Source: Collinsella aerofaciens (GTDB lineage: Bacteria; Actinomycetota; Coriobacteriia; Coriobacteriales; Coriobacteriaceae). Taken from it: a stretch of DNA of 64,000 nt. The stretch lies in NCBI RefSeq assembly GCF_902364945.1, contig NZ_CABJFS010000004.1, forward strand, positions 171,284-235,283, in the 5' to 3' direction. How positions within the stretch are numbered: position 1 is the first letter of the stretch; each line of letters starts with the position of its first letter. The notes beneath the pieces were generated by a model, which was not told where the DNA came from, ran no database searches, and worked only from the letters and a program-made list of their open reading frames with translations. Positions 7,242 through 53,060 of this stretch are shown piece after piece. The position numbers and the translations under genes were made by a program.

Positions 7242-8921
7242 ATGGCGGAGTTTATCTACCAGATGTATCAGGCTCGCAAGGCCCATGGCGACAAGGTAAT
7301 CCTTGACGACGTGACCCTGAGCTTCTACCCCGGTGCCAAGATCGGTGTCGTGGGCCCCAACGGCATGGGCAAGTCGACCCTGCTCAAGATTATGGCCGGC
7401 ATTGAGGAGGTCTCCAACGGCGATGCCAGGCTCACCCCCGGCTACACCGTGGGTATCCTGCAGCAGGAGCCGCCGCTCGACGACGACAAGACCGTCATCG
7501 AGAACGTGCGCATGGCGTTTGGCGACATGATCGCCAAGGTCGATCGCTTCAATAAGATCGGCGAGGAGATGTGCGACCCGGATTGCGACATGGACGCCCT
7601 CATGGCAGAGATGGGCAAGCTCCAGGACGAGATTGACGCCGCCGACGGCTGGGATATCGATTCCAAACTCGGCCAGGCCATGGACGCTCTGCAGCTGCCC
7701 GATTCCGACATGCCGGTCAACGTGCTTTCCGGCGGCGAGCGCCGCCGTGTGGCCCTGTGCAAGCTGCTGCTCGAGGCTCCCGACCTGCTGCTGCTCGACG
7801 AGCCCACGAACCACCTGGACGCTGAGTCGATCCTGTGGCTCGAGCACTTCCTGCACAACTACCAGGGCGCGGTGCTTGCCGTCACGCACGATCGCTACTT
7901 CCTGGATAACGTTGCCGAGTGGATCTGCGAGGTCGACCGCGGCCACCTTTATCCCTACAAGGGCAACTACTCCACGTATCTGGAGACCAAGGCCGCGCGT
8001 ATTGAGGCGCAGGGCAACCGCGATGCCAAGCTCGCCAAGCGCATGGAGGCCGAGCTCGAGTGGGTACGCAGCTCGCCCAAGGCTCGCCAGGCCAAGAACA
8101 AGGCCCGTCTGGCTCGCTACGAGGAGATGGAGGCCGAGGCCCGCGCAAGCCAGAAGCTCGACTGGACCGACATCCGCATCCCTGTGGGCCCGCGTCTGGG
8201 CAACAAGGTGCTCGAGGCCCATCACCTGCACAAGGAGTTCGATGGCCGCGTGCTCATCGATGACCTTTCGTTCACCCTGCCGCGCAACGGCATTGTGGGC
8301 GTTATCGGCCCCAACGGTGTCGGTAAGACCACGCTGTTCAAGACGATTGTGGGCCTGGAGCCGCTGACTTCGGGCGAGCTCGAGGTGGGCGAGACCGTCA
8401 AGATTTCTTACGTCGACCAGAACCGTTCCGGCATCGACCTCGACAAGAACCTGTGGGAGGTCGTCTCGGATGGCCTGGACCACATGATGGTCGGCGAGAC
8501 CGAGGTTCCGAGCCGCGCTTATGTGGCGAGCTTTGGCTTTAAGGGCCAGGACCAGCAGAAGCGCGCTGGCGTACTCTCCGGTGGCGAGCGCAACCGTCTG
8601 AACTTGGCGCTTACGCTCAAGCAGGGCGGCAACCTGCTGCTCCTCGACGAGCCCACGAACGACCTCGACGTCGAGACGCTGTCCTCGCTTGAAGCGGCGC
8701 TGCTCGAGTTCCCGGGCTGCTCGGTGGTCATTAGCCACGACCGTATGTTCCTGGACCGCGTCGCCACGCACATCCTGGCGTGGGAGGGCACCGACGAGAA
8801 TCCGGGCAACTGGTATTGGTTCGAGGGCAACTTCGAGGCCTATCAGGCCAACCGTATCGAGCGCCTGGGCGAGGACGCAGCCCAGCCGCATCGTATTCAC
8901 CGCAAGCTGACGCGCGATTAG
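7242..8921 (+). CDS. ettA: Energy-dependent translational throttle protein EttA (ABC-F)
   Basis: A soluble ABC-F ATPase that binds the ribosomal E site and gates translation according to ATP/ADP ratio. The 559 residues match the ~555 of E. coli EttA, and the N-terminus (FIYQMYQARK...LSFYPGAKIGVVG) follows the EttA subgroup. The first ABC module has GPNGMGKST at residues 38-46 and LSGGERRRVA; the second has GPNGVGKTT and LSGGERNRLN, with LLLLDEPTNHLD and LLLLDEPTNDLD Walker B boxes. The charged helical linker between modules (KARQAKNKARLARYEEM) is the P-site-contacting arm. There are no membrane segments. It is a single gene with its own terminator. Confidence 0.95.
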   Translation: MAEFIYQMYQARKAHGDKVILDDVTLSFYPGAKIGVVGPNGMGKSTLLKIMAGIEEVSNGDARLTPGYTVGILQQEPPLDDDKTVIENVRMAFGDMIAKVDRFNKIGEEMCDPDCDMDALMAEMGKLQDEIDAADGWDIDSKLGQAMDALQLPDSDMPVNVLSGGERRRVALCKLLLEAPDLLLLDEPTNHLDAESILWLEHFLHNYQGAVLAVTHDRYFLDNVAEWICEVDRGHLYPYKGNYSTYLETKAARIEAQGNRDAKLAKRMEAELEWVRSSPKARQAKNKARLARYEEMEAEARASQKLDWTDIRIPVGPRLGNKVLEAHHLHKEFDGRVLIDDLSFTLPRNGIVGVIGPNGVGKTTLFKTIVGLEPLTSGELEVGETVKISYVDQNRSGIDLDKNLWEVVSDGLDHMMVGETEVPSRAYVASFGFKGQDQQKRAGVLSGGERNRLNLALTLKQGGNLLLLDEPTNDLDVETLSSLEAALLEFPGCSVVISHDRMFLDRVATHILAWEGTDENPGNWYWFEGNFEAYQANRIERLGEDAAQPHRIHRKLTRD

Positions 8922-8930
8922 TAGCAAGTA

Positions 8931-8962
8931 GAAAGGCCGCCAGCAAGGGCGGCCTTTCTTGT
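8931..8962 (+). terminator. ettA terminator
   Basis: GAAAGGCCGCC and GGGCGGCCTTTC form a strong stem with a 5-base loop, followed by TTGT. Confidence 0.85.
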
Positions 8963-9133
8963 AGCAATTGCACTGCAGCTATGCCCTGGCTGCTGGTTTG
9001 ATTCATAATCAAAGTCATCTCTTTGGGATTAAAGCCCGTTTTTGCTATGAGTGATTTTCTAATTCCGTTTAAAACGTAAAGACGTATTGGGCTACAAGGA
9101 CATAAGCAAATCGAATTGAAATATAACCAGTGC

Positions 9134-9145
9134 TGTAACGTTACA
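9134..9145. promoter_or_regulatory. 12-bp palindrome upstream of the protease gene
   Basis: TGTAACGTTACA is a perfect palindrome 57 bp before the protease start. A TATAGAAT box follows at 9154-9161. It is a plausible operator for a dimeric regulator. The surrounding 8963-9201 is otherwise AT-rich DNA with no gene I can support. Confidence 0.35.
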
Positions 9146-9201
9146 AAAAAGGTTATAGAATAGGAGTATCTTATAAGTCGCTCCTCTAGAAAGAAGAACA
9201 T

Positions 9202-10329
9202 ATGCTTTCGCGTCGTCGTTTTCTGCAACTTGTCGCGTCTTCAATTGTCGCCTTAGCCGCACGTCCGAAAGAGGTTTTTGCTTCGACGGGCAATATTGAT
9301 GGTGAGCAGATACAATTTACTTCAGAAATTGCGCAAGAGCTTGCCGATAAATATATAAAGGGACTCCTCGGCTCTTCGTATACGCCCTCTGACCCTATTC
9401 CTTTTGTAGACGTTGATGGGTCCCCGCTTGGCTACATTGTTCCGGTTGTGACATTCAATAGAGCCGCGGGCTATTTGGTTTTAGATGCTTCAGATGATGA
9501 AATACTTACGGGATATCGTTTTGGAGACGGCTTAGTCAGCCCTATGGATCGGGGAGGAGATCTTGGTGTTGAGTCTTATTCTTTCAATAACCCAGTCGTA
9601 ATGATCAATCCATTCGAATTCGGTGTGCAATCTTTGGACGGTTCAATAACAACAAATTGCGGAAGAACAATCCCGGCTGTTTCCATAGAAGGACGGCCTG
9701 CCGTTTTATCGAATAAACCTTCAAGCTGGAACGATGTCGTAATTTACGCAACTCAAATGCAGGATTACACAGTATCTGGATTTCGTTCCATTTCTCAGTT
9801 TATGTCATATGATGAAAGCGAGATTAAGAGGCTTACTGCCCACTATGCTTGTATGGTGACAGCTTTTTCGAACGTTGCGGAACTGTATGGCATTGCCAAT
9901 TTATATAGCGACCCTTCGCAATATATGCAGATATGGAATTACACCAATACCCATGCTCTTTCCGATGAAGAACAGACTGTTCCCGGCGTTGTTTTGGGTG
10001 GAACGCCGATATCAACCTGTGCAACGGGGTTTACAAATTACTGCGCAAGCAGAGGAAGTACTCTTATCGCCCGCACTGTCTCCTCTCCGGCTATCGCGAG
10101 CATTCAAAATGAGATTAACTCTAATAGACCGAATGTTTTACATGCGAGTTTGTACAACGGATCAGCCCATTCTGTAACAGCGGAGGCTTACGCCACACTT
10201 ACTGGTAAGAAAACTGGAGAGACGAGGCAGATGATTGGCATAGCGGACGGCTGGAATTCATCTTTATCCTTCCTGAAGTATGATCAGAGCTATTATGCGT
10301 GGACTTATGGAACGACTTTTTCGAAGTAG
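9202..10329 (+). CDS. Putative secreted papain-like cysteine protease
   Basis: A 375-residue protein with an export signal: SRRRFLQL at residues 3-10 resembles a twin-arginine motif, then a hydrophobic stretch to ~20. Residues ~38-100 (FTSEIAQELADKYIKG...GYLVLDA) resemble the propeptide of streptopain-type (C10) proteases. Cys217 in HYACMVTAFSNVAELYG and His323 in NGSAHSVTAEAY are spaced like a papain or C39-like Cys/His pair, with Asp349 or Asn352 (ADGWN) as a possible third residue. The usual CGPTA context is not kept, so this is a distant member or a non-catalytic relative. It overlaps a lipoprotein gene. The patch is AT-richer than its surroundings. Confidence 0.55.
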   Translation: MLSRRRFLQLVASSIVALAARPKEVFASTGNIDGEQIQFTSEIAQELADKYIKGLLGSSYTPSDPIPFVDVDGSPLGYIVPVVTFNRAAGYLVLDASDDEILTGYRFGDGLVSPMDRGGDLGVESYSFNNPVVMINPFEFGVQSLDGSITTNCGRTIPAVSIEGRPAVLSNKPSSWNDVVIYATQMQDYTVSGFRSISQFMSYDESEIKRLTAHYACMVTAFSNVAELYGIANLYSDPSQYMQIWNYTNTHALSDEEQTVPGVVLGGTPISTCATGFTNYCASRGSTLIARTVSSPAIASIQNEINSNRPNVLHASLYNGSAHSVTAEAYATLTGKKTGETRQMIGIADGWNSSLSFLKYDQSYYAWTYGTTFSK

Positions 10330-10699
10330 GGCGATTCGTCTAGCTCTGTCTTTGGTGCTGATGGCTTCATTGGTGGGCTGTTCAACAAAGGAAGAGATAT
10401 CGCGCGGAGGTTCCGGAGAAGTGACTGCGACAGACTCAGGTTCATTAGAAATAGCTGGCGGGCATGCCGATGTGATGTTACAAGGAAAAGGCGTGCTTAG
10501 GTCGATTGATGCTGAAGACGCTGTCTGCTCAATAGAGGATTTGAAGACAGGTGAAACTGCATCGTACCGAGTTTCAGATAATGCTGCGAATATGATTGAG
10601 TCGATACCGACTGGAGCGCAGGTTTCTTTTAGATACTTTGCTCCGCAACTTGAGGATGAGCTTGCTTCTCTGGTGTCTATATGCGCCGATGACAACTAA
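10307..10699 (+). CDS. Small lipoprotein overlapping the protease gene
   Basis: From ATG 10307 (MERLFRS) the signal has basic residues, then LALSLVLMASLVGC. This is a clear lipobox with cysteine about 25 residues in, so the mature ~105-residue protein is lipid-anchored on the outer face of the membrane. Upstream in-frame ATGs at 10280 and 10295 are possible; none has a clear ribosome site, and all overlap the protease end, so translation is probably coupled. The mature part is acidic with no known domain. Its pairing with a secreted protease suggests an inhibitor, chaperone or partner (inference). Confidence 0.65.
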   Translation: MERLFRSRAIRLALSLVLMASLVGCSTKEEISRGGSGEVTATDSGSLEIAGGHADVMLQGKGVLRSIDAEDAVCSIEDLKTGETASYRVSDNAANMIESIPTGAQVSFRYFAPQLEDELASLVSICADDN

Positions 10700-10712
10700 A
10701 AGGCCTGAATTC

Positions 10713-10755
10713 AAATGGCCTCGGATGGTCAATTGGCTATCCGAGGCCATTTTTT
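10713..10755. terminator. Bidirectional terminator
   Basis: AATGGCCTCGGAT and ATCCGAGGCCATT form a long stem followed by TTTTTT on the plus strand. It separates two convergent genes and may serve both. Confidence 0.85.
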
Positions 10756-12061
10756 ACTCGACCGGGGCTTCGACCTTGTCGATGGCCCAGGTGGCTCCGA
10801 GACCGCCGGTGGTGTTGCGGCGGATACGCACGGTAACCTCGCGGCGCTCGCCGGCCTGCGTGTAGCGCAGGGGGAAGCTTGCGCGGTTTCGCGCGGCCTC
10901 AATGGTACCGCGTTCGCGGGCGATCCAGTAGTACTCGCCGACGATGCCGAGCGTGTCAGCGCCGTAGGGGAGATAGGTCGACAACTGGTGCAGAAGCGGG
11001 CCGGGGCAGAAGACCACGGTTGCGAAATCGACGGGGAAGTCCTTGGGGATGGCGGGCGCTGCAGGTGCGGGGGCTGGGGCCGCTGCGGGTACCGAAGCCG
11101 GTGCGGATGCGGGTATTTGGTCGCAAGCAGCGGCGGGCATGGATTCGATGACGGGTGCGGGCTCCGGCGTTACTTTCGGCTTGATCGTGGAATCTGCGGG
11201 CTTTACGGTGACGGGCGCGTCTGCAGCTGCAGTTTCAACCTCAACCTGCGTCGCGTTCTCGTTCTCGACGCTCGGCTTTGCCTCAATGGGCGTGGATGCC
11301 ATGGTGGTGATGCCGGCGTTTGCGTTCTCGGGGTCATAGACGACCGTGAGTGAGATGGCAGGCTGCGGTGCCTCGGGCTCCGGCACCGACTCGGTAGCGT
11401 CTTGATCGGCAGGCTCGTCGGACTGATCGTCCTCAGCCTCATCGCCAAAGACATCGCTGTTTTGGAACGCAGGCGTTTCGGGTTGGTTAGTGGCTTCTTC
11501 GATTGTCGACTTGGGAGCCTCATCGAGCTCTGCAGTGGCTTCCTGCTCGGATATGGCTTTGGGATCGGTCGTGGCGGCGATTTCGGTTTCGGCTTCTGCT
11601 GCTACCTCAATAGCGACTTCGATCTCTGCCTCGGGTTCGGGTTCCGGCACGGCTTCAACCATGGTTTCTGGCTCGGGACGCTTAACGTGCTTGGGACGCA
11701 CGGCCTTGAGGTCCTTCTCGCCGCGCTTTTTCTTTTTGTAGGACTGCTTGGCTCCCTTGGCTGCCTTGGGCTTGTCCTCGCCCTTGGCAAGGGCGGCATC
11801 CCAGGCCTCGTTGGCGATGACGGTGGCATACAGGCGACCGCCCTTAAAGACGGTCAGCTTAATGCAGTCGTCGAGCTCCTCGAGCAACTCGCGCGTGGAC
11901 TCGAAGCCCAGGTCATAAGCAGTCATGTCGCCAGCGGCGAGCGCCTCTTCGACCTGCGTCATAAACGTTTGCTTGCCGCACCCAATCGCGTCGCGCAGCA
12001 GGCGATACAGATAGATGTGGTTGCCCAGCGATAGCGTGGGCGTAACTATTGTCTTGCTCAT
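10754..12061 (-). CDS. Acidic low-complexity protein with possible LOTUS-like N-terminal domain
   Basis: Start taken at ATG 12061 because GGAGATTTGCC lies just upstream; an in-frame ATG at 12091 has no such site. The protein is about 435 residues. The first ~85 residues form a compact domain whose end, YDLGFESTRELLEELDDCIKLTVFKGGRLYATV, resembles the OST-HTH/LOTUS winged helix; this is a resemblance by eye, not a search result. A lysine patch (KKKKRGEKD) follows, then ~200 residues rich in Glu, Pro, Ala and Val. A C-terminal ~100-residue domain starts around IPKDFPVDFATVVF. No export signal. It could bind RNA, but that is inference. Confidence 0.6.
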   Translation of the reverse strand: MSKTIVTPTLSLGNHIYLYRLLRDAIGCGKQTFMTQVEEALAAGDMTAYDLGFESTRELLEELDDCIKLTVFKGGRLYATVIANEAWDAALAKGEDKPKAAKGAKQSYKKKKRGEKDLKAVRPKHVKRPEPETMVEAVPEPEPEAEIEVAIEVAAEAETEIAATTDPKAISEQEATAELDEAPKSTIEEATNQPETPAFQNSDVFGDEAEDDQSDEPADQDATESVPEPEAPQPAISLTVVYDPENANAGITTMASTPIEAKPSVENENATQVEVETAAADAPVTVKPADSTIKPKVTPEPAPVIESMPAAACDQIPASAPASVPAAAPAPAPAAPAIPKDFPVDFATVVFCPGPLLHQLSTYLPYGADTLGIVGEYYWIARERGTIEAARNRASFPLRYTQAGERREVTVRIRRNTTGGLGATWAIDKVEAPVE

Positions 12062-13144: not shown

Positions 13145-13318
13145 ACGGGGTCCTCCCGGTGTAAATCTGCTTCGTTTCGTGTAGCCATCAGGTTACCCAC
13201 CAGATGTGAATCGTACGTGACATTTAACAGATACCATCAACTCATCAAGGGGGCTTGCTGTCTTTGGTGCAATAACTTGATGCTAAACTGGATTTATGTT
13301 TGCGAGGTGGTTTACGTG

Positions 13319-13537
13319 ATGTACCCGTATATGACATTCGAAGATGGAACCGAGGTCATTCATTCTGACCTGATTACAGATGGCGATATCGAAAAGGTCA
13401 TCGTGCATTTTGAACGACCGACGGCAGAGGGCTTCGACTCCGCTCGTTGTGAGTTGCCTTCCTGTTCGTGGACTGACTGGGAAGGGCATTTTACTCAGAG
13501 TGAAAAGCGAGCTTTCGAAGAGTGTCTGAGCAAATAA
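13319..13537 (+). CDS. Small conserved-looking acidic protein, 72 residues
   Basis: ATG 13319 is preceded by GCGAGGTGG, and the protein begins MYPYMTFEDGTEVIHSDL. The frame is open further upstream, but that part reads as random sequence. The protein is acidic, with two Cys near the middle (CELPSC) and a Trp-rich WTDWEG. I recall similar short proteins in Firmicutes and Actinobacteria but cannot name a family. It ends ~100 bp before the radical-SAM island and may be a separate backbone gene. Confidence 0.65.
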   Translation: MYPYMTFEDGTEVIHSDLITDGDIEKVIVHFERPTAEGFDSARCELPSCSWTDWEGHFTQSEKRAFEECLSK

Positions 13538-13543
13538 TTTAGA

Positions 13544-13563
13544 TTAGTTCGAGTTTAGTTCGA
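13544..13563. promoter_or_regulatory. Direct repeat TTAGTTCGA, two copies 11 bp apart
   Basis: TTAGTTCGA occurs at 13544-13552 and 13555-13563, one helical turn apart, ~75 bp before the DUF2087 gene. This is the layout of a binding site for a regulator that touches one face of DNA. The gap 13538-13637 shows nothing else firm. Confidence 0.35.
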
Positions 13564-13637
13564 ATAAAGAAGCTGAATGCTATGACCTAAAGCGTATGCA
13601 TTTTTAGTATTAGATGCGTATGAAATGGAGGATGTGA

Positions 13638-13919
13638 ATGGATGAGCTAATAGACTTTAAAAAACGATTTCTCAAGAATGGCGAGCTGGTTTCAATTCCA
13701 AAAAAGGAAAGCTATAAAAGAATCATGCTGCTATGGGCCGTCTCTTTCTTTGAATTAAATACAAGTTATACGGAGCTTCAGGTTAATCGTGTACTGTCAC
13801 AGCTCTATCCTGATTATGCCGTGTTGAGGCGGTGCTTGGTTGATTATGGATTCCTATTAAGGGATGAACGAGGCCTGAAATACGAGGTTAATCGTGATGT
13901 TCACGGTATTGAGAGCTAG
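13638..13919 (+). CDS. DUF2087-type protein, likely regulator of the peptide locus
   Basis: A 93-residue protein that follows the DUF2087 pattern closely: FLKNGELVSIPKKESYKRIMLLWAV at the start, then NTSYTELQVNRVLSQLYPDYAVLRRCLVDYGFLLRD. Families with this domain are winged-helix-like and are often attached to transcription regulators. GGAGGATGTGA precedes the ATG. It is the first gene of a tight four-gene run, and its last 23 bp overlap the MFS gene, so the two are translated together. A role in controlling the downstream exporter and maturase is inferred from position. Confidence 0.75.
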   Translation: MDELIDFKKRFLKNGELVSIPKKESYKRIMLLWAVSFFELNTSYTELQVNRVLSQLYPDYAVLRRCLVDYGFLLRDERGLKYEVNRDVHGIES

Positions 13920-15081
13920 CCGTCCGGTTCGGGTCCTATATATTGCTAGAGGGATAAGCGAAATAGGCAATTGGTGTGCGAATATTGCTTTGCCAATGCT
14001 GATTTACGAGGTAACTCACGATGTTTCTGCAACTGCTTTGATGGTCTGCTGCAGATTTGCCCCCTCTCTGTTTTCAGTTGCGCTCGCGCAGCTGCCTCAG
14101 AAGATGGGTATCGGGACACTGCAGGCCATGAGATTGGCAGACTTAATTCGCGCGGGATTATTCGTTTGCTATATTTTTGTTGATAGTAAATGGAGTATGT
14201 TTGCTATTACGTGCGCGGTATCGCTTTGCCGAACGGTAGAAATGCCCTGCTTTTACTCGTTGTTAAGAGCCAATACGAATAGTATCAATCGCGACGTAAT
14301 TAATAATTCGTTTGGGTTCCTGCAGAATTTAATGATGGTTCTGGGGCCAGTTGCCGGCGGTTTTGTTGTCGCTCAATTTGGGGCGGAGGCTGTTCTTGCA
14401 TTAGACGCGCTTTCTTTTGCCGCGTCGTTCTGGTTGCTGCGAGATGTTCCGTCGGTTATCGAGGTTAATGATAAAGAGGGAATAAGCAAAAATGAAAAAA
14501 ACAGGACTGCATTTAGTGATCTTAGCGCGAAGCACTTGGCAATTGGTTTCCTATTAATCGATATTTCTAGTGGCGTGGCATTCGGCTCTCTGAATTCTCT
14601 TTTGCCAGCTATAGCGCAATTGCAATTTGACTCGTCATCGATACAATACGGATTCCTTCAGAGTAGTCTTACAATCGGACTGTTGTTCGGAAATACAATA
14701 TATGGTCGTTTAATCAGTGGTTCCGATTGCGTTAAATCATATTGTTTTGTGACGTATCTTGCGCTCGGTGCGTATCTGGCGTTTGGCTATCGCTATGCGT
14801 CTGGGATATCGTTTATTTTCCTTTTTATCGTCGGTGCCGGAAACGCCATTCAAGATGTGCTTCTCATAACATCGCTGCAGGATTTGGCGAGAGACGGATC
14901 TGAATCGATAAGCCTGTTTTCAATTAGGGAGTCTTTGCAATCGGTTGCTGTTGTTATTTCAACACTTCTTGTTTCGCTGTTCACGAGCATCGCGATGTTC
15001 TCAATTCTCGTTACAGGACTTGGTGTATTTTCAATTATGATGGTAGTTGTGTTTCAATTGAATTACTTACGAAAGATGTGA
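13897..15081 (+). CDS. MFS transporter, probable exporter of the peptide product
   Basis: About 394 residues from ATG 13897 (GAGG nine bases upstream), with a GTG one codon earlier as the alternative. Hydrophobic segments throughout give roughly 12 membrane helices, the major facilitator plan, and the opening RPVRVLYIARGISEIGNWCANIALPMLIYEV resembles MFS drug/macrolide-type exporters. There is a soluble loop near residue 190-205 (NDKEGISKNEKNRT) between the two halves. It overlaps the DUF2087 gene and ends 7 bp before the radical-SAM gene. Export of the modified peptide, or immunity, is the natural reading. Strongly AT-rich codons. Confidence 0.85.
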   Translation: MFTVLRASRPVRVLYIARGISEIGNWCANIALPMLIYEVTHDVSATALMVCCRFAPSLFSVALAQLPQKMGIGTLQAMRLADLIRAGLFVCYIFVDSKWSMFAITCAVSLCRTVEMPCFYSLLRANTNSINRDVINNSFGFLQNLMMVLGPVAGGFVVAQFGAEAVLALDALSFAASFWLLRDVPSVIEVNDKEGISKNEKNRTAFSDLSAKHLAIGFLLIDISSGVAFGSLNSLLPAIAQLQFDSSSIQYGFLQSSLTIGLLFGNTIYGRLISGSDCVKSYCFVTYLALGAYLAFGYRYASGISFIFLFIVGAGNAIQDVLLITSLQDLARDGSESISLFSIRESLQSVAVVISTLLVSLFTSIAMFSILVTGLGVFSIMMVVVFQLNYLRKM

Positions 15082-15088
15082 CGTTGAT

Positions 15089-17410
15089 ATGCCTAAAACG
15101 CTTTTAGTATTTCCCCCAGGATGGAGTCCAGTGGGGCCGTATCTTGCCTTGCCTGTTTTGAAGTCATATCTTCAAGAGGTTGAACAATACAAAGTTGACA
15201 TTGTTGACTTAAACGTGGAATTTTACGATGACCTCCTATCTTTTAGACATGTCGAAGAGTGCTGTAAAAGGTATCGGGAATCAAAGGATTCGTTTAGTTC
15301 GAATGTTCAATTAACAATCGAGTTGATACAAAAGTCGGCACTTAATGTTGACGAGGCAAAAGATATTTTCAGATCGAAGAGATACTTTAATCTAAAAGAA
15401 AGACAATATGCTGAAAACATTTTTAGAAATGCACTCTATATCATAAATCACGTCTCATATGGAGTTAAATACACGTTCAACTCCATAGATCTGCCCTATG
15501 ATTATTATTCGACACCAGAAATAATGAAATCGCTTGCGGATACCTTGCATAATCCGTTTATTTCCTTCTATGAAACTGCCTTTCTTAAGCGTATTCAGAG
15601 GGAAAAAATCGAGTTTATTGGGATTTCGGTGAGCGGCTGTTTCCAATTGATTTCTGCAGTTACGTTAGCGAAACTGATTAAAGAAGAATGTCCATCTGTT
15701 AAACACGTCTCATTGGGCGGCAATTACATTACTCGTTTAGCAGATGACTGCATGAAAGAATGGCATCCCTTTTTTGAATACATTGATTCGATAATGATGT
15801 ATGACGGCGAAGAGCCGCTTGCACGTCTTCTTGAGGCTCTTGACTCTGGTGATGACAATCTCGACTGTGTTCCAAACCTTTGCCATGCTAAAGGTGGAAA
15901 GATATATAAAAACCATCGGATTGAGCAAACATTTATCAACGATACAGTTCCCGATTTCGATGGCTTCGCCCTTTCTAAATACTTCATGCCTGAGCTAATA
16001 TTGCCGGTTTATTCCTCTAGGCAGTGTTTTAATCATTGCGCCTTCTGCACCATTCCCGGTGCTACCGGTGGTTGTTACCGAAAGATGCCTATATCGAGAG
16101 TATTTGAAATAATGTGTCGGTTAAATGAAAAATACGGCACGAGAGTTTTCTCTTTTGTGGATGAAACATTCGAAGGCAAAAGAATGGAGCAACTCGCGGA
16201 TGAAATAAACGCATCGGGAAAAACGTTTTTCTGGCATGGAGAAACGAGGTTCTCTCCAACCCTAAGTACAGACGTTTTTAACAAGATATACCAAAGTGGA
16301 TGTAGGCAGATTCAGTTTGGCCTCGAGTCATACAACCAAAGAGTTCTTGATCTAATGAAGAAGAACACGAGAGTTGATTGGATTGATCGCAATATCCATG
16401 ATTGTCTCAATGCGGGTATTCCTGTTCATCTATTTTTTATGATTGGCTTTCCGACCGAAACTAAAGAAGAGGCTCTGAACACCTTAGCTTATACAGAGAA
16501 TGTTTTGAATTATTCAAAACAGGTATGTGGTGTTCCATATTCCACGAGAGGATTTACGAATTTTGGTCTCGTTATGGGGTCGGATGTTTGGAATCATCCC
16601 GATAAGTATGGTGTCTCTGTAATGCCGAAGTCCCAATATGAGGATTTGCGCCTCGAAGTGGATTATGTTTCAGGCACTGGTTTAACTTTAAATGAAGCAA
16701 AATCCTTATCTGATGAGCATCATATTGATTTTTATATGCAAGAGGTCATAAACGGTAGCGACACAATTGACTTGCCCCAGCGGCTTCATATTTCAGAGGT
16801 GACCTGGATCCTAGATTCTATTCACGCTGTCAGGTATAAGGGACATTTGACCAAAGTAAAGCGACGGCTAACTAGTCTAAATCCAGCTGATCGAATCTGG
16901 CTGGATTCCAAGACCTCTGTCGTGCTCGTTGAGCCATTTGCCTACTTCTATAATTCTGAATACCATCATGTCTATGCTGTTTCCCAGTTGGTATACCTTA
17001 AGTTGGCCCGTTTATTGGAGGCCGATTGTAGCATTTCTCTTATTCTTGATCAGGGCGACCTCGAGCTGACAAGGGCGATAGAAGAACTGTTGCATTATGG
17101 ATTGCTGAATACAAATATCGATGCCGATTATGTAATGCACGATAATGGTTTTCAATTGGTTAAAAGTTCGTTTGTTAAAGAAGTCGGACGCTCAAAAGAG
17201 GGGTTAAGAGTACTGCTGAGTTGTGCCACCCATAGAATGTGTGCGGTTAATGATTATTCGTTCGCTTTGCTTTCGTTGTTTGAAAAGCCGATTACTAAGA
17301 ACGAGGTGCGCGATATTTTGAAAAAAGAGGGACTATCGGCAAACGAGGAGCAATTAAACACGTTGGTTGATAATTGCATGAAAGCAGATATACTACAATT
17401 GATTAGATAG
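15089..17410 (+). CDS. Large radical-SAM enzyme with B12-binding-like N-terminus, probable peptide maturase
   Basis: A 773-residue enzyme. Residues 1-~285 resemble a cobalamin-binding Rossmann domain (MPKTLLVFPPGWSP, later IEFIGISVSG and HVSLGG) but lack the DxHxxG histidine motif. The radical-SAM core follows: Cys313, Cys317 and Cys320 (CFNHCAFC) bind the 4Fe-4S cluster, GES-like HGETRF and FGLESYN come later, and Cys329 lies nearby. Residues ~590-773 are extra: two winged-helix-like stretches (VYLKLARLLEADCSISLILD... and FALLSLFEKPITKNEVRDIL...) that could bind a leader peptide as PqqD/RRE domains do. It sits 7 bp after the exporter and 13 bp before the 36-codon peptide gene. I infer it modifies that peptide; the chemistry is unknown. 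Confidence 0.85.
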   Translation: MPKTLLVFPPGWSPVGPYLALPVLKSYLQEVEQYKVDIVDLNVEFYDDLLSFRHVEECCKRYRESKDSFSSNVQLTIELIQKSALNVDEAKDIFRSKRYFNLKERQYAENIFRNALYIINHVSYGVKYTFNSIDLPYDYYSTPEIMKSLADTLHNPFISFYETAFLKRIQREKIEFIGISVSGCFQLISAVTLAKLIKEECPSVKHVSLGGNYITRLADDCMKEWHPFFEYIDSIMMYDGEEPLARLLEALDSGDDNLDCVPNLCHAKGGKIYKNHRIEQTFINDTVPDFDGFALSKYFMPELILPVYSSRQCFNHCAFCTIPGATGGCYRKMPISRVFEIMCRLNEKYGTRVFSFVDETFEGKRMEQLADEINASGKTFFWHGETRFSPTLSTDVFNKIYQSGCRQIQFGLESYNQRVLDLMKKNTRVDWIDRNIHDCLNAGIPVHLFFMIGFPTETKEEALNTLAYTENVLNYSKQVCGVPYSTRGFTNFGLVMGSDVWNHPDKYGVSVMPKSQYEDLRLEVDYVSGTGLTLNEAKSLSDEHHIDFYMQEVINGSDTIDLPQRLHISEVTWILDSIHAVRYKGHLTKVKRRLTSLNPADRIWLDSKTSVVLVEPFAYFYNSEYHHVYAVSQLVYLKLARLLEADCSISLILDQGDLELTRAIEELLHYGLLNTNIDADYVMHDNGFQLVKSSFVKEVGRSKEGLRVLLSCATHRMCAVNDYSFALLSLFEKPITKNEVRDILKKEGLSANEEQLNTLVDNCMKADILQLIR

Positions 17411-17423
17411 AGGAGGTTTCTGC

Positions 17424-17534
17424 ATGGACGTTATAAACAAAGATCTCTTGGAGCAACTGAAAGAGTCTCAGGAAGAGGGCGTCGTGGTAGAAGTGTTCGA
17501 CTTTGAGGACTACATGGATAAATTCTGCCATTAG
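17424..17534 (+). CDS. Candidate precursor peptide, 36 residues
   Basis: An uncatalogued-looking short ORF with a near-ideal ribosome site (AGGAGG, then TTTCTGC) starting 13 bp after the radical-SAM stop and ending before a strong terminator. It starts MDVINKDLLEQLKES and ends FDFEDYMDKFCH: acidic, with a helical first half, a Val-rich middle (GVVVEVF), and a single Cys next to the C-terminus. A helical acidic leader followed by a short core rich in modifiable residues (Phe, Asp, Tyr, Cys) is the usual form of radical-SAM RiPP substrates. That it is a substrate is inference from context; that it is translated is strongly supported by its ribosome site and placement. Confidence 0.7.
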   Translation: MDVINKDLLEQLKESQEEGVVVEVFDFEDYMDKFCH

Positions 17535-17558
17535 TTTCGGAATTTACTTGCCTCGCTT

Positions 17559-17592
17559 AAAGGAGAAGTCGATTATCGATTTCTCCTTTTTT
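17559..17592 (+). terminator. Terminator of the radical-SAM peptide operon
   Basis: AAAGGAGAA and TTCTCCTTT pair, with inner TCGA/TCGA pairing, and run straight into TTTTT. It marks the operon end after the peptide gene. The gap 17593-17722 shows no gene. Confidence 0.88.
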
Positions 17593-17722
17593 AATTAAAG
17601 ATATTTTTGGAATACATGCTCTTAGCACAGGTTGGCGTCTCAGTAAACTGGGAGGTTGCTTTGGCTAGTTAGAGATATGTGAACGTCCGTTAGACTGAAT
17701 CTCAGGGTAGAAGGGGCCTCCA

Positions 17723-19723
17723 GTGTCCAGATCAACAAGGCAATGTTGCGTTTCGGCTAATAAGAACGATGGCTTTTTGCGTGTGGCGGCGGCGTCGCCG
17801 CGGATTCGCGTGGCCGATGTCGAGGGCAATGCCGAGGTTGCGCTGGGGGCTGTTCGGGAGGCTGCCGAGCGCGGCGTTCGCGCGTTGGTGTTGCCCGAGC
17901 TTAATCTGTGCGGCTATACCGCGGCCGATCTGTTCCATAACCGCACACTGCTGCATGCCTGCGAGGCGGCACTTGTGCACATCCTCGATGAAACCCGTGA
18001 GTTGCCGGTCGTCTTTACCATCGGTCTTCCCGTTGCAGTTGCCGAGAATATCTACAACTGCGCCGCCGTGTGCTGCGCGGGCGAGCTTTTGGGCCTCACG
18101 GTCAAGAAGTATTTGCCCAACTATGGCGAGTTCTATGAGCGCCGTTGGTTTGCTCCGGCGCCTGCGGATCCCGTGTGGGTTGAATTTGCCGGTCAGGGTC
18201 CGGTCCCGCTGGGTTCGGGGCTTGTCTACCGTTGCTGTGATGAAGGCGCCGAGGACCTGGTGCTGGGCGTTGAAGTCTGTGAGGACCTGTGGGTGCCGGC
18301 ACCCCCTTCGACCGAGATGGCGCTTGCCGGTGCGACGGTGATTCTCAACCCGTCGGCCTCGGATGAGATTATCGGTAAGGCAGACTATCGCCGCAGCCTT
18401 ATCTCCAATCAGAGTGCGCGCCTGTACTGCGCCTATGCCTACGCGGATGCGAGCGAGGGCGAGTCCACGACCGACATGGTCTTTGCGGGCGAGAATCTTA
18501 TCTACGAAAACGGCTCCAAGCTCGCTGCTACCAAGCTGCTCACTTGCGATATGGCGGTGGCCGATGTCGACCTCGATCGTCTGGTTGCCGAGCGCCGCCG
18601 CTCGACGACGTGGACGCGCGCGGACGATGCGCCGGAGGCCACGACCGTTGAGTTTTCGTTTGAGGGCGTGCTGGCCAAAGAGCCTGTTCTGCGCGATGCC
18701 TGCGATATCGACCGCGTTTTCCCTCGCGCGCCTTTTGTGCCGGCCGACCACGGTGATCTGGCCGAGCGTTGCGAGACTATTCTCAATCTGCAGACTGCGG
18801 GCCTCAAGACTCGCCTTGCCCATACGGGTACCAAGGCTGCAGTCATCGGTCTTTCGGGTGGCTTGGACTCCACGCTGGCACTGCTTGTGACCGTGCGTGC
18901 CTTCGACGCACTGGGACTGCCACGCACGGGTATCACGGCGGTCTCCATGCCCGGCTTTGGCACGACGCATCGCACCAAGTCGAATGCCGAGTCGCTCGCC
19001 CGCGACCTGGGCGTGAGCTTCCGCGAGGTTTCGATCCACGCGGCTGTGGAGCAGCACTTCAAGGACATTGAGCACGATCCGGCCGTGCAGGACGTGACCT
19101 ACGAGAACAGCCAGGCCCGCGAGCGTACGCAGATTCTGATGGATCTGGCCAATCAGGCCGGCGGTTTTGTCATCGGCACGGGCGACCTGTCGGAGCTGGC
19201 GCTCGGCTGGGCTACCTACAACGGCGACCACATGAGCATGTACGCCGTCAACGCGAGCGTGCCCAAGACGCTTGTGCGCCATCTGGTGCGCTATGCCGCT
19301 GATGTTTTTGGCGGGCGTATTGCCGAGGTCTTGCTCGATATCCTCGATACGCCGGTGTCCCCCGAGCTTCTGCCGCCCACGGGCGACGGCGAGATTGCGC
19401 AGAAGACTGAGGATTTGGTGGGCCCGTACGAGCTGCACGACTACTTCCTCTACTACCTGCTGCGTTTTGGCTTTGAGCCGGGCAAGATCTACCGCATGGC
19501 GCTCAAGAGCTTCGAGGGCGCCTACGACGTCAAGACCGTTCACACGTGGCTGCGTACGTTCTACCGTCGCTTCTTTGCCCAGCAGTTTAAGCGCAGCTGC
19601 CTGCCCGATGGCCCCAAGGTGGGTTCGGTCACGCTCAGCCCGCGCGGCGATTGGCGCATGCCGAGTGACGCCAGCTCGCGCCTGTGGCTCGCCCAGATTG
19701 ACGCGCTCAATCCGATGGACTAA
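17723..19723 (+). CDS. nadE: Glutamine-dependent NAD+ synthetase
   Basis: Makes NAD+ from deamido-NAD+, using ammonia released from glutamine. The N-terminal ~300 residues are a nitrilase-type glutaminase with its triad in place: Glu59 (LPELNLCGYT), Lys129 (KKYLPNYGEFYE) and Cys186 (GVEVCEDLW). The C-terminal synthetase has the PP-loop SGGLDSTLAL near residue 376 and the later GTGDLSELALGW. At 666 residues it is the usual size for the two-domain form. Start is GTG 17723, with AAGGGG upstream. It is a single gene with its own terminator in return to GC-rich backbone. Confidence 0.95.
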   Translation: MSRSTRQCCVSANKNDGFLRVAAASPRIRVADVEGNAEVALGAVREAAERGVRALVLPELNLCGYTAADLFHNRTLLHACEAALVHILDETRELPVVFTIGLPVAVAENIYNCAAVCCAGELLGLTVKKYLPNYGEFYERRWFAPAPADPVWVEFAGQGPVPLGSGLVYRCCDEGAEDLVLGVEVCEDLWVPAPPSTEMALAGATVILNPSASDEIIGKADYRRSLISNQSARLYCAYAYADASEGESTTDMVFAGENLIYENGSKLAATKLLTCDMAVADVDLDRLVAERRRSTTWTRADDAPEATTVEFSFEGVLAKEPVLRDACDIDRVFPRAPFVPADHGDLAERCETILNLQTAGLKTRLAHTGTKAAVIGLSGGLDSTLALLVTVRAFDALGLPRTGITAVSMPGFGTTHRTKSNAESLARDLGVSFREVSIHAAVEQHFKDIEHDPAVQDVTYENSQARERTQILMDLANQAGGFVIGTGDLSELALGWATYNGDHMSMYAVNASVPKTLVRHLVRYAADVFGGRIAEVLLDILDTPVSPELLPPTGDGEIAQKTEDLVGPYELHDYFLYYLLRFGFEPGKIYRMALKSFEGAYDVKTVHTWLRTFYRRFFAQQFKRSCLPDGPKVGSVTLSPRGDWRMPSDASSRLWLAQIDALNPMD

Positions 19724-24625: not shown

Positions 24626-24668
24626 GCTTGGAGCTGAATTGAGTTGCAGACTGAGCATACGTCAGCGA

Positions 24669-24807
24669 AAACGCCCCTAGGCGAGCAAGGTGACGTGAAA
24701 GAGGAGGGAAGCGTACTTCGGTACGCGACCGACGATTGAACGTCAGATTGCCGCTTAGGGGCGTTTGCAGCGTCGAGCCGTTACGCGGTTTGGTAAAACC
24801 GCGTAAC
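24669..24807 (+). ncRNA. Structured repeat family A, copy A1
   Basis: Nested stems: outer AAACGCCCCTA/TAGGGGCGTTT (24669-24679, 24756-24766), middle TGACGT/ACGTCA (24691, 24740), and apex GCGTAC-TTCG-GTACGC (24711-24726). A separate 3' hairpin GTTACGCGGTTT/AAACCGCGTAAC (24780-24807) follows. It lies between convergent genes. Copies A2 (45010-45148) and A3 (39421-39521) share the apex while their outer stems differ but stay paired. Whether it is transcribed is unknown. Confidence 0.65.
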
Positions 24808-24809
24808 TT

Positions 24810-45002: not shown

Positions 45003-45009
45003 TCATATA

Positions 45010-45148
45010 GTTACGCGGTTTTACCAAACCGCGTAACAGCTCGACGCTGCAAACGGCCGAGAGCGGCAATCTGACGTTCAATCGTCGCTCGCGTACCAAA
45101 GTACGCGACGCTTCTCTTTCACGTCACCTTGCTCGCTCTCGACCGTTT
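45010..45148 (-). ncRNA. Structured repeat family A, copy A2
   Basis: Minus-strand reading: outer AACGGTCGAGAGCG/CGCTCTCGGCCGTT, middle TGACGT/ACGTCA, apex GCGTAC-TTTG-GTACGC, then the hairpin GTTACGCGGTTT/AAACCGCGTAAC (45010-45037 on plus coordinates), nearly identical to that of A1. The outer stem differs from A1 at several paired positions. It lies between two plus-strand genes. Confidence 0.65.
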
Positions 45149-45240
45149 TCGCTGACATTGCCAAAACATCGATGTTGATTTGCTGGTCAGTCGAGTGGGT
45201 AGAATGCCTCCAACGTGTAACTCGATTCGGAGGAATTCGC

Positions 45241-50538: not shown

Positions 50539-51717
50539 ATGAACGTTCTGGTCGTCAACGCAGGATCTTCGACCCTTAAGTATCAGGTCATCGATACCAA
50601 GTCCCATAAGGTGTCCGCAAAGGGCTCCTGCGAGCGCGTCTGCTTTACCGGCGGCACTTTCACCCATGCTGCCAACGGCTCCAAGAAGGTGACCGAGAAC
50701 ATCGAGTTCCCCGACCACAAGGTCGCCATCGAGGTTGTCCTGAAGGACCTCGAGGCCAACGGCGTCAAGATTGAGGGTATCGGCCACCGTATCGTTCAGG
50801 GCGGTTGGTACTTTGGCGATTCCTCCCTCGTCGACGAGGATGTCCTCGCCAAGATCCGCGAGGTCGCTCCGCTCGCCCCGCTGCACAACAACCCCGAGGC
50901 CAACGTTATCGAGTACTGCCTGGAGCAGTATCCCGACCTGCCCAACGTCACGGTTTACGACACCGCTTTCCACTTCAACATGCCCGAGGTCGCCAAGACT
51001 TACGCCCTGCCCAAGGACGTCTGCGACAAGCTGCACATCCGTAAGTACGGCGCCCACGGCACCAGCTACCGCTACATCTCCAAGAAGGTCGCCGAGATGA
51101 CCAACGGCGAGGCCCGCAAGGTCGTCGTGTGCCATATCGGCTCCGGCGCTTCCCTGTGCGCCATCGAGGACGGCAAGTGCATGGACACCACCATGGGCTT
51201 GACGCCGCTCGACGGCGTCATGATGGGCACCCGCTGCGGCTCCATCGACCCGGCTACCGTGTGCTACCTGCAGCGCGAGGGCGGCTACACCTTCGACGAG
51301 GTCGACGAGATGATGAACAAGAAGTCCGGCCTTTTGGCTGTGACCGGCGGCAAGACCAACGACTGCCGCAACGTCGAGGAGCTCGCCGCTGCCGGTGACC
51401 CCGAGGCCCAGCTCGCCTTCGATATGTTCGTCTACAAGATTGCCGCCAAGGCTGCCGAGATGGCCACCTCCATGTGCGGTATGGACACCCTGGTCTTCAC
51501 TGCCGGCATCGGTGAGCACGCTCCTGCCGTCCGCGCCGGCGTGGCCGACCGCCTGGCCTTTATGGGCGTCAAGATGGATCATGCCCGCAACGCCCTGCGT
51601 GGTGACGGCGCATGGTGCCTGTCTGCCAAGGATTCCAAGGTCAAAATCTTTGTCATCCCCACGGACGAGGAGTTCATGATCGCTTCCGACGTCGAGCGCA
51701 TCGTCAACGGCAAGTAA
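50539..51717 (+). CDS. ackA: Acetate kinase, copy 1, with altered active-site residue
   Basis: Interconverts acetyl phosphate and acetate with ATP, the energy-yielding end of acetate fermentation. It has 392 residues. The family landmarks VLVVNAGSS, Arg84 (GHR), His116 (LAPLHN), Asp141 (VYDTAFH) and GTRCGSIDPA are kept. However, the active-site His in GTSH is Tyr177 here (AHGTSYRYI), whereas copy 2 has His177. Both copies also have VQGGW where VHGGE is usual. Loss of that His is expected to weaken catalysis or shift substrate, so this copy may have another role. GGGAGACAC precedes the ATG. Confidence 0.88.
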   Translation: MNVLVVNAGSSTLKYQVIDTKSHKVSAKGSCERVCFTGGTFTHAANGSKKVTENIEFPDHKVAIEVVLKDLEANGVKIEGIGHRIVQGGWYFGDSSLVDEDVLAKIREVAPLAPLHNNPEANVIEYCLEQYPDLPNVTVYDTAFHFNMPEVAKTYALPKDVCDKLHIRKYGAHGTSYRYISKKVAEMTNGEARKVVVCHIGSGASLCAIEDGKCMDTTMGLTPLDGVMMGTRCGSIDPATVCYLQREGGYTFDEVDEMMNKKSGLLAVTGGKTNDCRNVEELAAAGDPEAQLAFDMFVYKIAAKAAEMATSMCGMDTLVFTAGIGEHAPAVRAGVADRLAFMGVKMDHARNALRGDGAWCLSAKDSKVKIFVIPTDEEFMIASDVERIVNGK

Positions 51718-51723
51718 TTGCAA

Positions 51724-51768
51724 GAGGGGAGGGGCTGGACGACCGAGCGCCGTTCAGCTCCTCTTTTG
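51724..51768 (+). terminator. Terminator between the acetate kinase copies
   Basis: AGGGGCTGGAC pairs with GTTCAGCTCCT using two G-U pairs, followed by CTTTTG. Confidence 0.6.
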
Positions 51769-51881
51769 TACTCGTTGGGCGATATGCCTGATAGCTATTT
51801 ATCAAGTTGTGATAACTTCTTATTAACATGCGGCCGCCTTAAGGGGTCTGCGCCGACCGTATCGCACTGCAAAGGAGTCTC

Positions 51882-53060
51882 ATGAACGTACTTGTTGTCA
51901 ACGCCGGCAGCTCGAGCCTTAAATATCAGCTTTTGGATACCGATACCCGCGAGGTTTTCGCCAAGGGCAACTGCGAGCGTATCGGCTCGGAGATGGGCAT
52001 CTTTGGCCACTCCGAGAACGGTGGTGCCAAGCAGACCGAGGAGATTCCTTTTCCCGATCATCGCTGCGCCATTGCGCGCGTGCTCGAGGAGCTCGAGAAG
52101 ACCGACTTTACGATCGATGGCATCGGCCACCGTATCGTTCAGGGTGGCTGGCACTTCGATGATTCCGCGGTCGTCGACGATGAGGTCATGGCTAAGATCC
52201 TCGAGGTTGCTCCGCTCGCCCCGCTGCACAATTACGGCGAGGCCGCGGCAATCGAATATTGCCGCGAGAAGTATCCGGAGCTGCCCAACGTGGCCGTCTT
52301 CGACACCTCGTTCCACATGACCATGCCCGAGGTCGCCTACACCTACGCGCTGCCCAAGGACGTGTGCGACAAGTACCACGTGCGCAAGTACGGTGCCCAC
52401 GGCACGAGTCACCGCTATGAGTGGATGATGGCCAAGGAGATCCTGGGCTCGCGCTGCCACCGCCTGCTCTCGTGCCATTTGGGCAACGGCGCCTCGCTTG
52501 CCGCCATCGAGGACGGTGTATGCCGCGATACCACGATGGGCCTCACGCCGCTCGACGGCCTGATGATGGGCACCCGTTGTGGTTCCATTGACCCGGCTAC
52601 CGTGTGCTACCTGCAGCGCGAGGGCGGCTACAGCTACCAGGAAGTCGATGACATGATGAACAAGCAGTCTGGTCTGCTTGCCATCTCGGGCATCTCCAAC
52701 GACGCCCGTGACATCCGTACGCGCGCCTCCGAGGGCGACGAGCGCTGCCTGCTCGCCTTCGATATGTTCGCCTACAAGGCCATGCAGCAGGCCGGCTCCA
52801 TGATCGCTTCCATGGCGGGCGTGGACACCATTACCTTTACCGCCGGCATTGGCGAGAACGACTGGTCGATCCGCAAGGCCTTCTGCGACTGCTTCGAGTG
52901 GCTGGGCGTGCGCATCGACAACAACAAGAACCGCGAGGCCGTGGGTAACGGCCCGCAGGTCATCAGCGCCGCCGGCTCTTCCGTCACGGTCATGGTCATC
53001 CCCACCGACGAGGAATACATGATCGCCCACGACGTCGAGCGTTTGACCGCGAATAACTAG
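51882..53060 (+). CDS. ackA: Acetate kinase, copy 2
   Basis: A second 392-residue acetate kinase, colinear with copy 1 without gaps but clearly diverged along its length. The active-site residues are canonical here: Arg84, His116 (LAPLHN), Asp141 (VFDTSFH), His177 (AHGTSHRY), and GTRCGSIDPA. The same VQGGW variant occurs. It is read by its own ribosome site (AAAGGAGTCTC) and has its own terminator, so the copies can be expressed separately. pta is encoded convergently 350 bp away, giving the full acetyl-CoA to acetate pathway. Confidence 0.92.
   Translation: MNVLVVNAGSSSLKYQLLDTDTREVFAKGNCERIGSEMGIFGHSENGGAKQTEEIPFPDHRCAIARVLEELEKTDFTIDGIGHRIVQGGWHFDDSAVVDDEVMAKILEVAPLAPLHNYGEAAAIEYCREKYPELPNVAVFDTSFHMTMPEVAYTYALPKDVCDKYHVRKYGAHGTSHRYEWMMAKEILGSRCHRLLSCHLGNGASLAAIEDGVCRDTTMGLTPLDGLMMGTRCGSIDPATVCYLQREGGYSYQEVDDMMNKQSGLLAISGISNDARDIRTRASEGDERCLLAFDMFAYKAMQQAGSMIASMAGVDTITFTAGIGENDWSIRKAFCDCFEWLGVRIDNNKNREAVGNGPQVISAAGSSVTVMVIPTDEEYMIAHDVERLTANN

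Follow-up and report, generated by a model that had tools for sequence, protein, structure and literature searches.

The window, by which we mean the whole 64,000-nucleotide stretch of Collinsella aerofaciens DNA that was analysed, carries four genes on one strand. A first-pass annotation had described them as closely packed within an AT-rich island that a strong terminator closes, with a 36-codon open reading frame (ORF) and an AGGAGG site directly behind the gene of a 773-residue radical-SAM protein, and coordinates, GC content and fold z-score all agree with this description. The features of the locus are listed below, where G045 and G206 are two other genomes that hold relatives of these genes.

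13638..13919, + strand: gene of a 93-aa DUF2087 protein, a probable regulator (PF09860, E 3e-19; a 44% identical partner beside the radical-SAM gene of G045, a third member in G206)
13897..15081 (alternative GTG start at 13894), + strand: gene of an MFS exporter of 394-395 aa (PF07690, MFS_1, E 7e-16; relatives behind the peptide in G045, 30% identical, and G206, 32%)
15089..17410, + strand: gene of a 773-aa cobalamin-type radical-SAM protein, a probable peptide maturase (Radical_SAM, E 8e-18)
16025..16048, + strand: CxxxCxxC motif of the radical-SAM protein, C313-C317-C320
16892..17113, + strand: first PqqD-like repeat, residues 602-675 (strands and helices of the model; profile match to the second repeat)
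17153..17404, + strand: second PqqD-like repeat, residues 689-772 (Pfam PqqD in relatives; aligned columns)
17411..17416, + strand: AGGAGG ribosome-binding site of the peptide (read from the sequence)
17424..17534, + strand: precursor-like peptide of 36 codons, MDVINKDLLEQLKESQEEGVVVEVFDFEDYMDKFCH (ORF undamaged in each of the 10 Collinsella genomes examined, the window among them; G045 and G206 carry relatives)
17481..17531, + strand: probable 17-residue core VVVEVFDFEDYMDKFCH after Glu-Gly (G045/G206 core pN; end of the metagenomic peptide P0158)
17559..17597, + strand: hairpin terminator of the operon (stem 17559-17589, T run, fold z)
13249..17767, no strand: stretch standing in place of about 123 bp at empty sites (seen in 12 of the 13 C. 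aerofaciens-complex genomes without a cassette that were examined)

The DUF2087 and MFS genes overlap by 23 nt (ATG at 13897) or 26 nt (GTG at 13894), the MFS and radical-SAM genes are 7 nt apart, and the peptide ORF follows the radical-SAM gene after 13 nt. GC content is 0.36-0.46 across the operon genes versus about 0.58-0.64 in the flanking genes, and the terminator stem has 14 pairs followed by a T run (fold z = -3.46). Promoter-like sites showed no excess, with 9 observed and 10.1 in shuffles, and neither a protease nor a separate immunity gene is among the four genes of the cassette. A small ORF at 13319-13537 was considered as a further member of the operon and rejected; a relative 88% identical in DNA occupies the same site in genome G011, where it adjoins a DUF4160 gene without the stretch from DUF2087 to the peptide. 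This ORF of 72 aa, which has no Pfam family, resembles one half of a two-gene module severed by the cassette.

The radical-SAM protein models as a cobalamin-type enzyme similar to OxsB and TsrM with two PqqD-like repeats at its C-terminal end. The radical-SAM domain and the CxxxCxxC motif are both present in the window enzyme, and among 35 sequences C313 and C320 are invariant and C317 nearly so. The B12-binding family PF02310 gave a sub-threshold 19.8 bits in the window enzyme (cut-off 32.1) and was detected at E <= 0.1 in 17 of 35 enzyme relatives. The enzyme model matched the fold of OxsB/TsrM over its N-terminal part at 17% identity, in a comparison that covers mostly residues 1-584. The best NCBIfam match was TIGR03975 (RiPP maturation radical SAM C-methyltransferase, rSAM_ocin_1) over residues 6-519; because its score of 119.7 bits is far under the curated cut-off of 281.85, membership of this family and its reaction are not established for the window enzyme. 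The enzyme also differs from TIGR03975 in its C-terminal part, from about residue 600, where the two PqqD-like repeats lie outside the match.

One repeat-to-repeat profile comparison of the PqqD-like repeats gave an E value of 2.8e-5. Pfam PqqD reached its cut-off in the C-terminal part of the relatives P0027, P0072 and P0090, fell below it in P0025, and had no match in the window enzyme itself; the C-terminal part folded alone gave a pLDDT of 47, and that model was discarded. Compared with its homologue in G045, the enzyme is 51% identical over 591 columns (N-terminal and catalytic part) and about 18% identical in the C-terminal part, so that the PqqD-like part diverges in the same way as the leader of the peptide described below. 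Such steep divergence would be expected if this part reads the leader, the relation being a correlation only. Relatives of about 35-46% identity were found in Lachnospiraceae, Lactococcus, Fusobacterium and Desulfosporosinus (best 120 of 268 matches). Among plasmid sequences no relative exceeded 28% identity, and distant relatives on viral contigs, at most 30% identical, were set aside. Among the papers searched, none joined radical SAM, Lactococcus lactis, cobalamin-binding and RiPP, and none joined cobalamin-dependent radical SAM, precursor peptide, genome mining and PqqD.

The peptide matched no Pfam family, its single NCBIfam row was weak, scoring 14.9 bits where the cut-off is 90, and a plasmid search with it returned no match. 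A profile built from two sequences, those of the window and G045, was run against 396 genomes of the class and matched 10 of them at E <= 2.7e-16, with the next best match at E 0.01; these matches include the profile's own two types, and G206 is the only new lineage. The radical-SAM gene or parts of it were present in nine of the ten peptide-positive genomes of this class sample, and the peptide in all nine radical-SAM-positive genomes. The peptide stands behind the enzyme gene, or behind its 3' remnant in copies broken by insertions. A precursor-like ORF beside the enzyme is found in 9 of 9 radical-SAM-positive genomes of the class sample, among them G045 with its different layout.

Conservation within the peptide is concentrated at its C-terminal end, where the last 15-17 residues are kept in the form E-V-x-D-x-E-D-Y-x-x-K-[FY]-C and the preceding part is divergent, a pattern that suggests a division into leader and core. 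The last 15 residues in G045, IEVLDHEDYLVKYCN, and in the window, VEVFDFEDYMDKFCH, are identical at 8 of 15 positions, and 0 of 200,000 shuffles gave an equally good end-anchored match. P0158 has a different leader and a last 15 residues identical to those of the window peptide, and both peptides have Glu-Gly at a distance of 17 residues from the end. For the core, the comparison of G045 with G206 gives a pN of 0.024, with pS saturated at about 1.0; for the whole peptide pN is 0.18. Among seven representatives chosen by hand, Met1 and E-V-x-D-x-E-D-Y-x-x-K-x-C are invariant. In 37 window-type metagenomic clusters (39 found, less P0122 and P0158), Ser replaces Cys in 3 and Asn or Ser replaces Tyr in 4, and the end was read by eye as truncated, extended or shifted in 13, some of which may be assembly artefacts. 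Judged by these comparisons the short ORF is not a chance ORF. The earlier annotation had named a peptide ORF conserved in no relative as evidence against its reading; the core-like C-terminal end that it proposed recurs in G045, G206 and P0158.

At E <= 1e-60 the enzyme was found in nine of the 396 class genomes, eight of the genus and G045, which belongs to another family of the same order (locus L046). Maturase homologues consistently lacking a short ORF at this place had likewise been named as such evidence; the G045 homologue has a 39-codon ORF 21 nt behind the enzyme gene. The MFS gene comes next after this peptide (30% identical to the window MFS, E 1e-37), and the DUF2087 gene lies upstream on the opposite strand (44% identical). 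GC content in this stretch is mostly 0.40-0.46, versus mostly 0.58-0.67 upstream and 0.47-0.63 downstream. The same four gene types are kept together across two families of one order, in altered order and strand. In G206, DUF2087, peptide and MFS genes occupy the place corresponding to that in G045, with an MFS protein 54% identical to that of G045; no enzyme gene is in the G206 cassette, and the best enzyme-profile match in that genome has an E value of 7e-5. Since G206 keeps peptide, MFS and DUF2087 without the enzyme, the peptide may act unmodified there. Two further MFS relatives are on contigs of 162,832 and 9,614 bases, sizes shared with those of two radical-SAM relatives (among the best 120 of 268 matches listed), and from these matching sizes the two kinds of relative are presumably on the same contigs.

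A comparable set of gene types is known from bottromycin. The DUF2087 protein BtmL raises expression of the bottromycin precursor gene in the btm cluster of Streptomyces scabies, where a short precursor peptide, class B radical-SAM methyltransferases and BtmA, an MFS transporter, are also encoded (PMC7113386). A DUF2087 protein, an MFS protein, a short precursor and radical SAM (of B12 type here by fold only) are common to bottromycin and the cassette. The cassette differs in having one radical-SAM enzyme and no other modifying gene among its four, and in having the conserved end of the peptide at the C-terminus. Bottromycin has its core at the N-terminus of the precursor, and YcaO-type enzymes are required in its cluster; no YcaO-type or related enzyme was found by Pfam among the four cassette genes, and the resemblance goes no further than the parts named above. 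Of the two structural matches, OxsB acts on a nucleotide and TsrM acts on free tryptophan (tryptophan-bound structure entry). The PQQ and mycofactocin systems join a short precursor with a fixed C-terminal end, a PqqD-like leader-binding part and radical SAM, but their radical-SAM enzymes are SPASM types, not B12 types, and the PqqD-like repeats here are, in contrast, fused and doubled. DUF2087 had no solved structural relative by sequence. We read the cassette as a new RiPP-like system with regulator and exporter types common to bottromycin.

The gene set of G045, the co-occurrence of peptide and enzyme and the conserved core support the RiPP-like reading that the first-pass annotation had offered, the term RiPP being inferred from sequence. 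Taken as a whole, the locus is best and, we think, probably explained by four genes that make a small RiPP-like peptide product. The PqqD-like repeats would bind the variable leader, and the radical-SAM/B12 part would then modify the conserved core; C-methylation of an unactivated carbon is the likeliest reaction, with other radical chemistry also possible. Because none of the four genes encodes a protease, the core would be freed near Glu-Gly by an enzyme from outside the cassette, a general protease. The MFS protein would export the product and protect its maker, and DUF2087 would tune expression, as BtmL does for bottromycin.

The cassette has recently spread among the related species that make up the C. 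aerofaciens complex. It is present, whole or in part, in nine other genomes of the complex: six isolates, of which one bears the label Collinsella sp., a MAG and two further genomes; the D40t1 sequence covers only its 3' end onward. When these genomes are compared with the window in steps of 200 bases, identity is 97-100% over 13700-17500 and mostly 85-97% in the flanks, with extremes of 67.5 and 100. The start of nadE was matched at >= 91% in 21 of 43 genus genomes, of which 8 have the cassette, 12 a clean empty site and 1 (G011) a different insert, the ORF like 13319-13537 beside a DUF4160 gene (L068). At the empty site, some 123 bp containing nadE's own start link window position 13248 to about 17768; the first codons of the NAD synthase gene are thus among what the cassette replaces. 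At about 17723-17767 these first codons differ from those of empty-site genomes, the start region having been exchanged by the insertion.

The enzyme gene is intact in two of the ten Collinsella genomes, the window and G024, and carries a lesion in the other eight. The start codon is changed from ATG to ATA in MCC370, stops occur at codon 11 in 1001271st1_C3 and at codon 29 in MAG L003, and G007 has two extra G at codon 15-16. BSD2780120874b H1 has an insertion at codon 198 with transposase-like ORFs and a 4-5-bp duplication; we take its long ORFs to resemble IS21-type genes. D31t1 and BG-O-102 have insertions near codons 748-752, with duplicated target sites of 14 and 15 bp, and the D40t1 contig starts at the same junction as the second contig of BG-O-102, perhaps through one shared event. 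Contigs breaking near codon 748 had first suggested a shufflon or invertible 3' end, a possibility rejected when the junctions showed insertions; the breaks in D31t1 and BG-O-102 are insertions because their target sites are duplicated. The insertions at codons 748-752, which lie in the final 25 or so codons, may spare part of the function, and the ATA start in MCC370 might be weakly used. Some lesions could be errors of sequencing or assembly, which is unlikely for insertions with target duplications. Protein searches gave one further kind of damage and one possible one. P0002-P0007 are 1053-aa proteins in which MFS and radical-SAM are fused across a deletion (P0002 and P0007 read), another breakage of the enzyme gene. 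P0013, a 68% enzyme relative of 537 aa without the first third or so, possibly comes from a damaged enzyme gene, and its contig (162,832 bases) matches in size that of the full-length MFS relative P0164. The MFS protein search had no full-length window-type proteins among its listed rows, and its short rows are maybe contig ends, so that it was uninformative as a control for the lesions.

The other genes are largely undamaged: DUF2087 is intact in 9 of 9 genomes and the peptide in 10 of 10, and of nine MFS genes eight are intact, the exception being that of D31t1 with one inserted A. Pooled pairwise pN/pS was 0.10 for the enzyme, 0.20 for MFS, 0.23 for DUF2087 and 0.13 for the peptide; by its value the enzyme was under purifying selection until recently. 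Private changes in the enzyme gene (nine genomes, D40t1 left out) comprised 13 synonymous, 4 missense and 7 lesions. Eight of the nine lesions are in the enzyme gene, which makes up about 60% of the coding length; this excess is not significant (p about 0.07 by hand; with BG-O-102 and D40t1 counted as a single event, about 0.10). We propose, tentatively and as a possibility, that an undescribed RiPP class, defined by a B12 radical-SAM maturase with fused tandem PqqD-like repeats and a precursor with a ...EVxDxEDYxxK[FY]C[NH] core, recently swept through the C. aerofaciens complex and then repeatedly lost its maturase with exporter, regulator and precursor kept, a turnover from producers to resistant non-producers. 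A product that is antagonistic or otherwise costly would lead to frequent loss of the maturase after arrival of the cassette, with exporter and regulator kept. On the lesion pattern alone, the cassette plausibly encodes an antagonist, with export and self-protection outlasting its production.

The lesions could instead be the neutral decay of an unneeded cassette, an explanation that concerns the lesions only and is compatible with the RiPP-like reading. It accords with the occurrence of lesions in isolates and one MAG, with the single frameshift in MFS and with an excess of enzyme-gene lesions over length share that is not significant; however, missense changes are purged in all four genes (pN/pS 0.10-0.23), and private lesions outnumber private missense changes in the enzyme gene, 7 to 4 in nine genomes, and we regard such decay as somewhat unlikely. 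If the product were not an antagonist but a metallophore or a small molecule of cofactor type, this would fit the fixed core with its C-terminal Cys-His/Asn and an exporter distantly like EntS. The closest NCBIfam models of the MFS protein are exporters, all far below cut-off, with the EntS model at 47.6 bits against 324. The core varies little, as is typical of cofactor and metallophore precursors, unlike most bacteriocins, and loss in many strains also fits cheating on a public good. A cheater would need an importer, yet it is the exporter that is kept, and no importer or receptor gene is among the four; this variant of the RiPP-like reading is unlikely.

That the peptide itself is active, as a signal or toxin, with the enzyme an optional tailoring step that can be lost, seems quite unlikely to us. 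The intact peptide in 10 of 10 Collinsella genomes beside a damaged enzyme gene in 8 of 10, and the conserved core in G206 without an enzyme gene, agree with it; purifying selection on the enzyme until recently (pN/pS 0.10) speaks against it, the peptide is a small mutational target of 111 bp, and the spoilt ends in 13 of 37 metagenomic clusters, artefacts perhaps among them, suggest that the peptide is apparently lost as well. It is very improbable that the short ORF encodes an attenuator, a regulatory leader peptide controlling the MFS efflux gene, with the enzyme acting on another substrate: the peptide is directly upstream of MFS in G045 and G206 with a G+C-rich inverted repeat between them, as read from the sequence, and both genes persist without the enzyme in G206, but in Collinsella the peptide is the last gene before the terminator and MFS is upstream, so that it cannot attenuate MFS there, and the same C-terminal segment is kept.

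On the RiPP-like reading, such conservation of the core suggests a single defined product and target, and an operon of four genes with a short conserved core is small enough for testing in E. coli. C. aerofaciens is a common human gut species whose RiPPs seem little described. Purged missense changes set against frequent lesions raise the question, testable in gut metagenomes, of whether competition within the host makes strains give up production but retain self-protection.

Other features of the window were recorded. A second AT-rich island at 8920-10770 encodes a protein of 375 aa that has a signal-like N-terminus and matches no Pfam family clearly; the island is absent at the same place in L003, L005 and L007. 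An inverted pair of a 148-nt interspersed repeat, 89% alike, lies at 24661-24808 and 45009-45156, and in L003 and L007 the position of the 8920-10770 island is taken by sequence resembling this repeat. Finally, 50686-52675 contains two direct repeats, 74-82% alike, at a spacing of 1343 nt.
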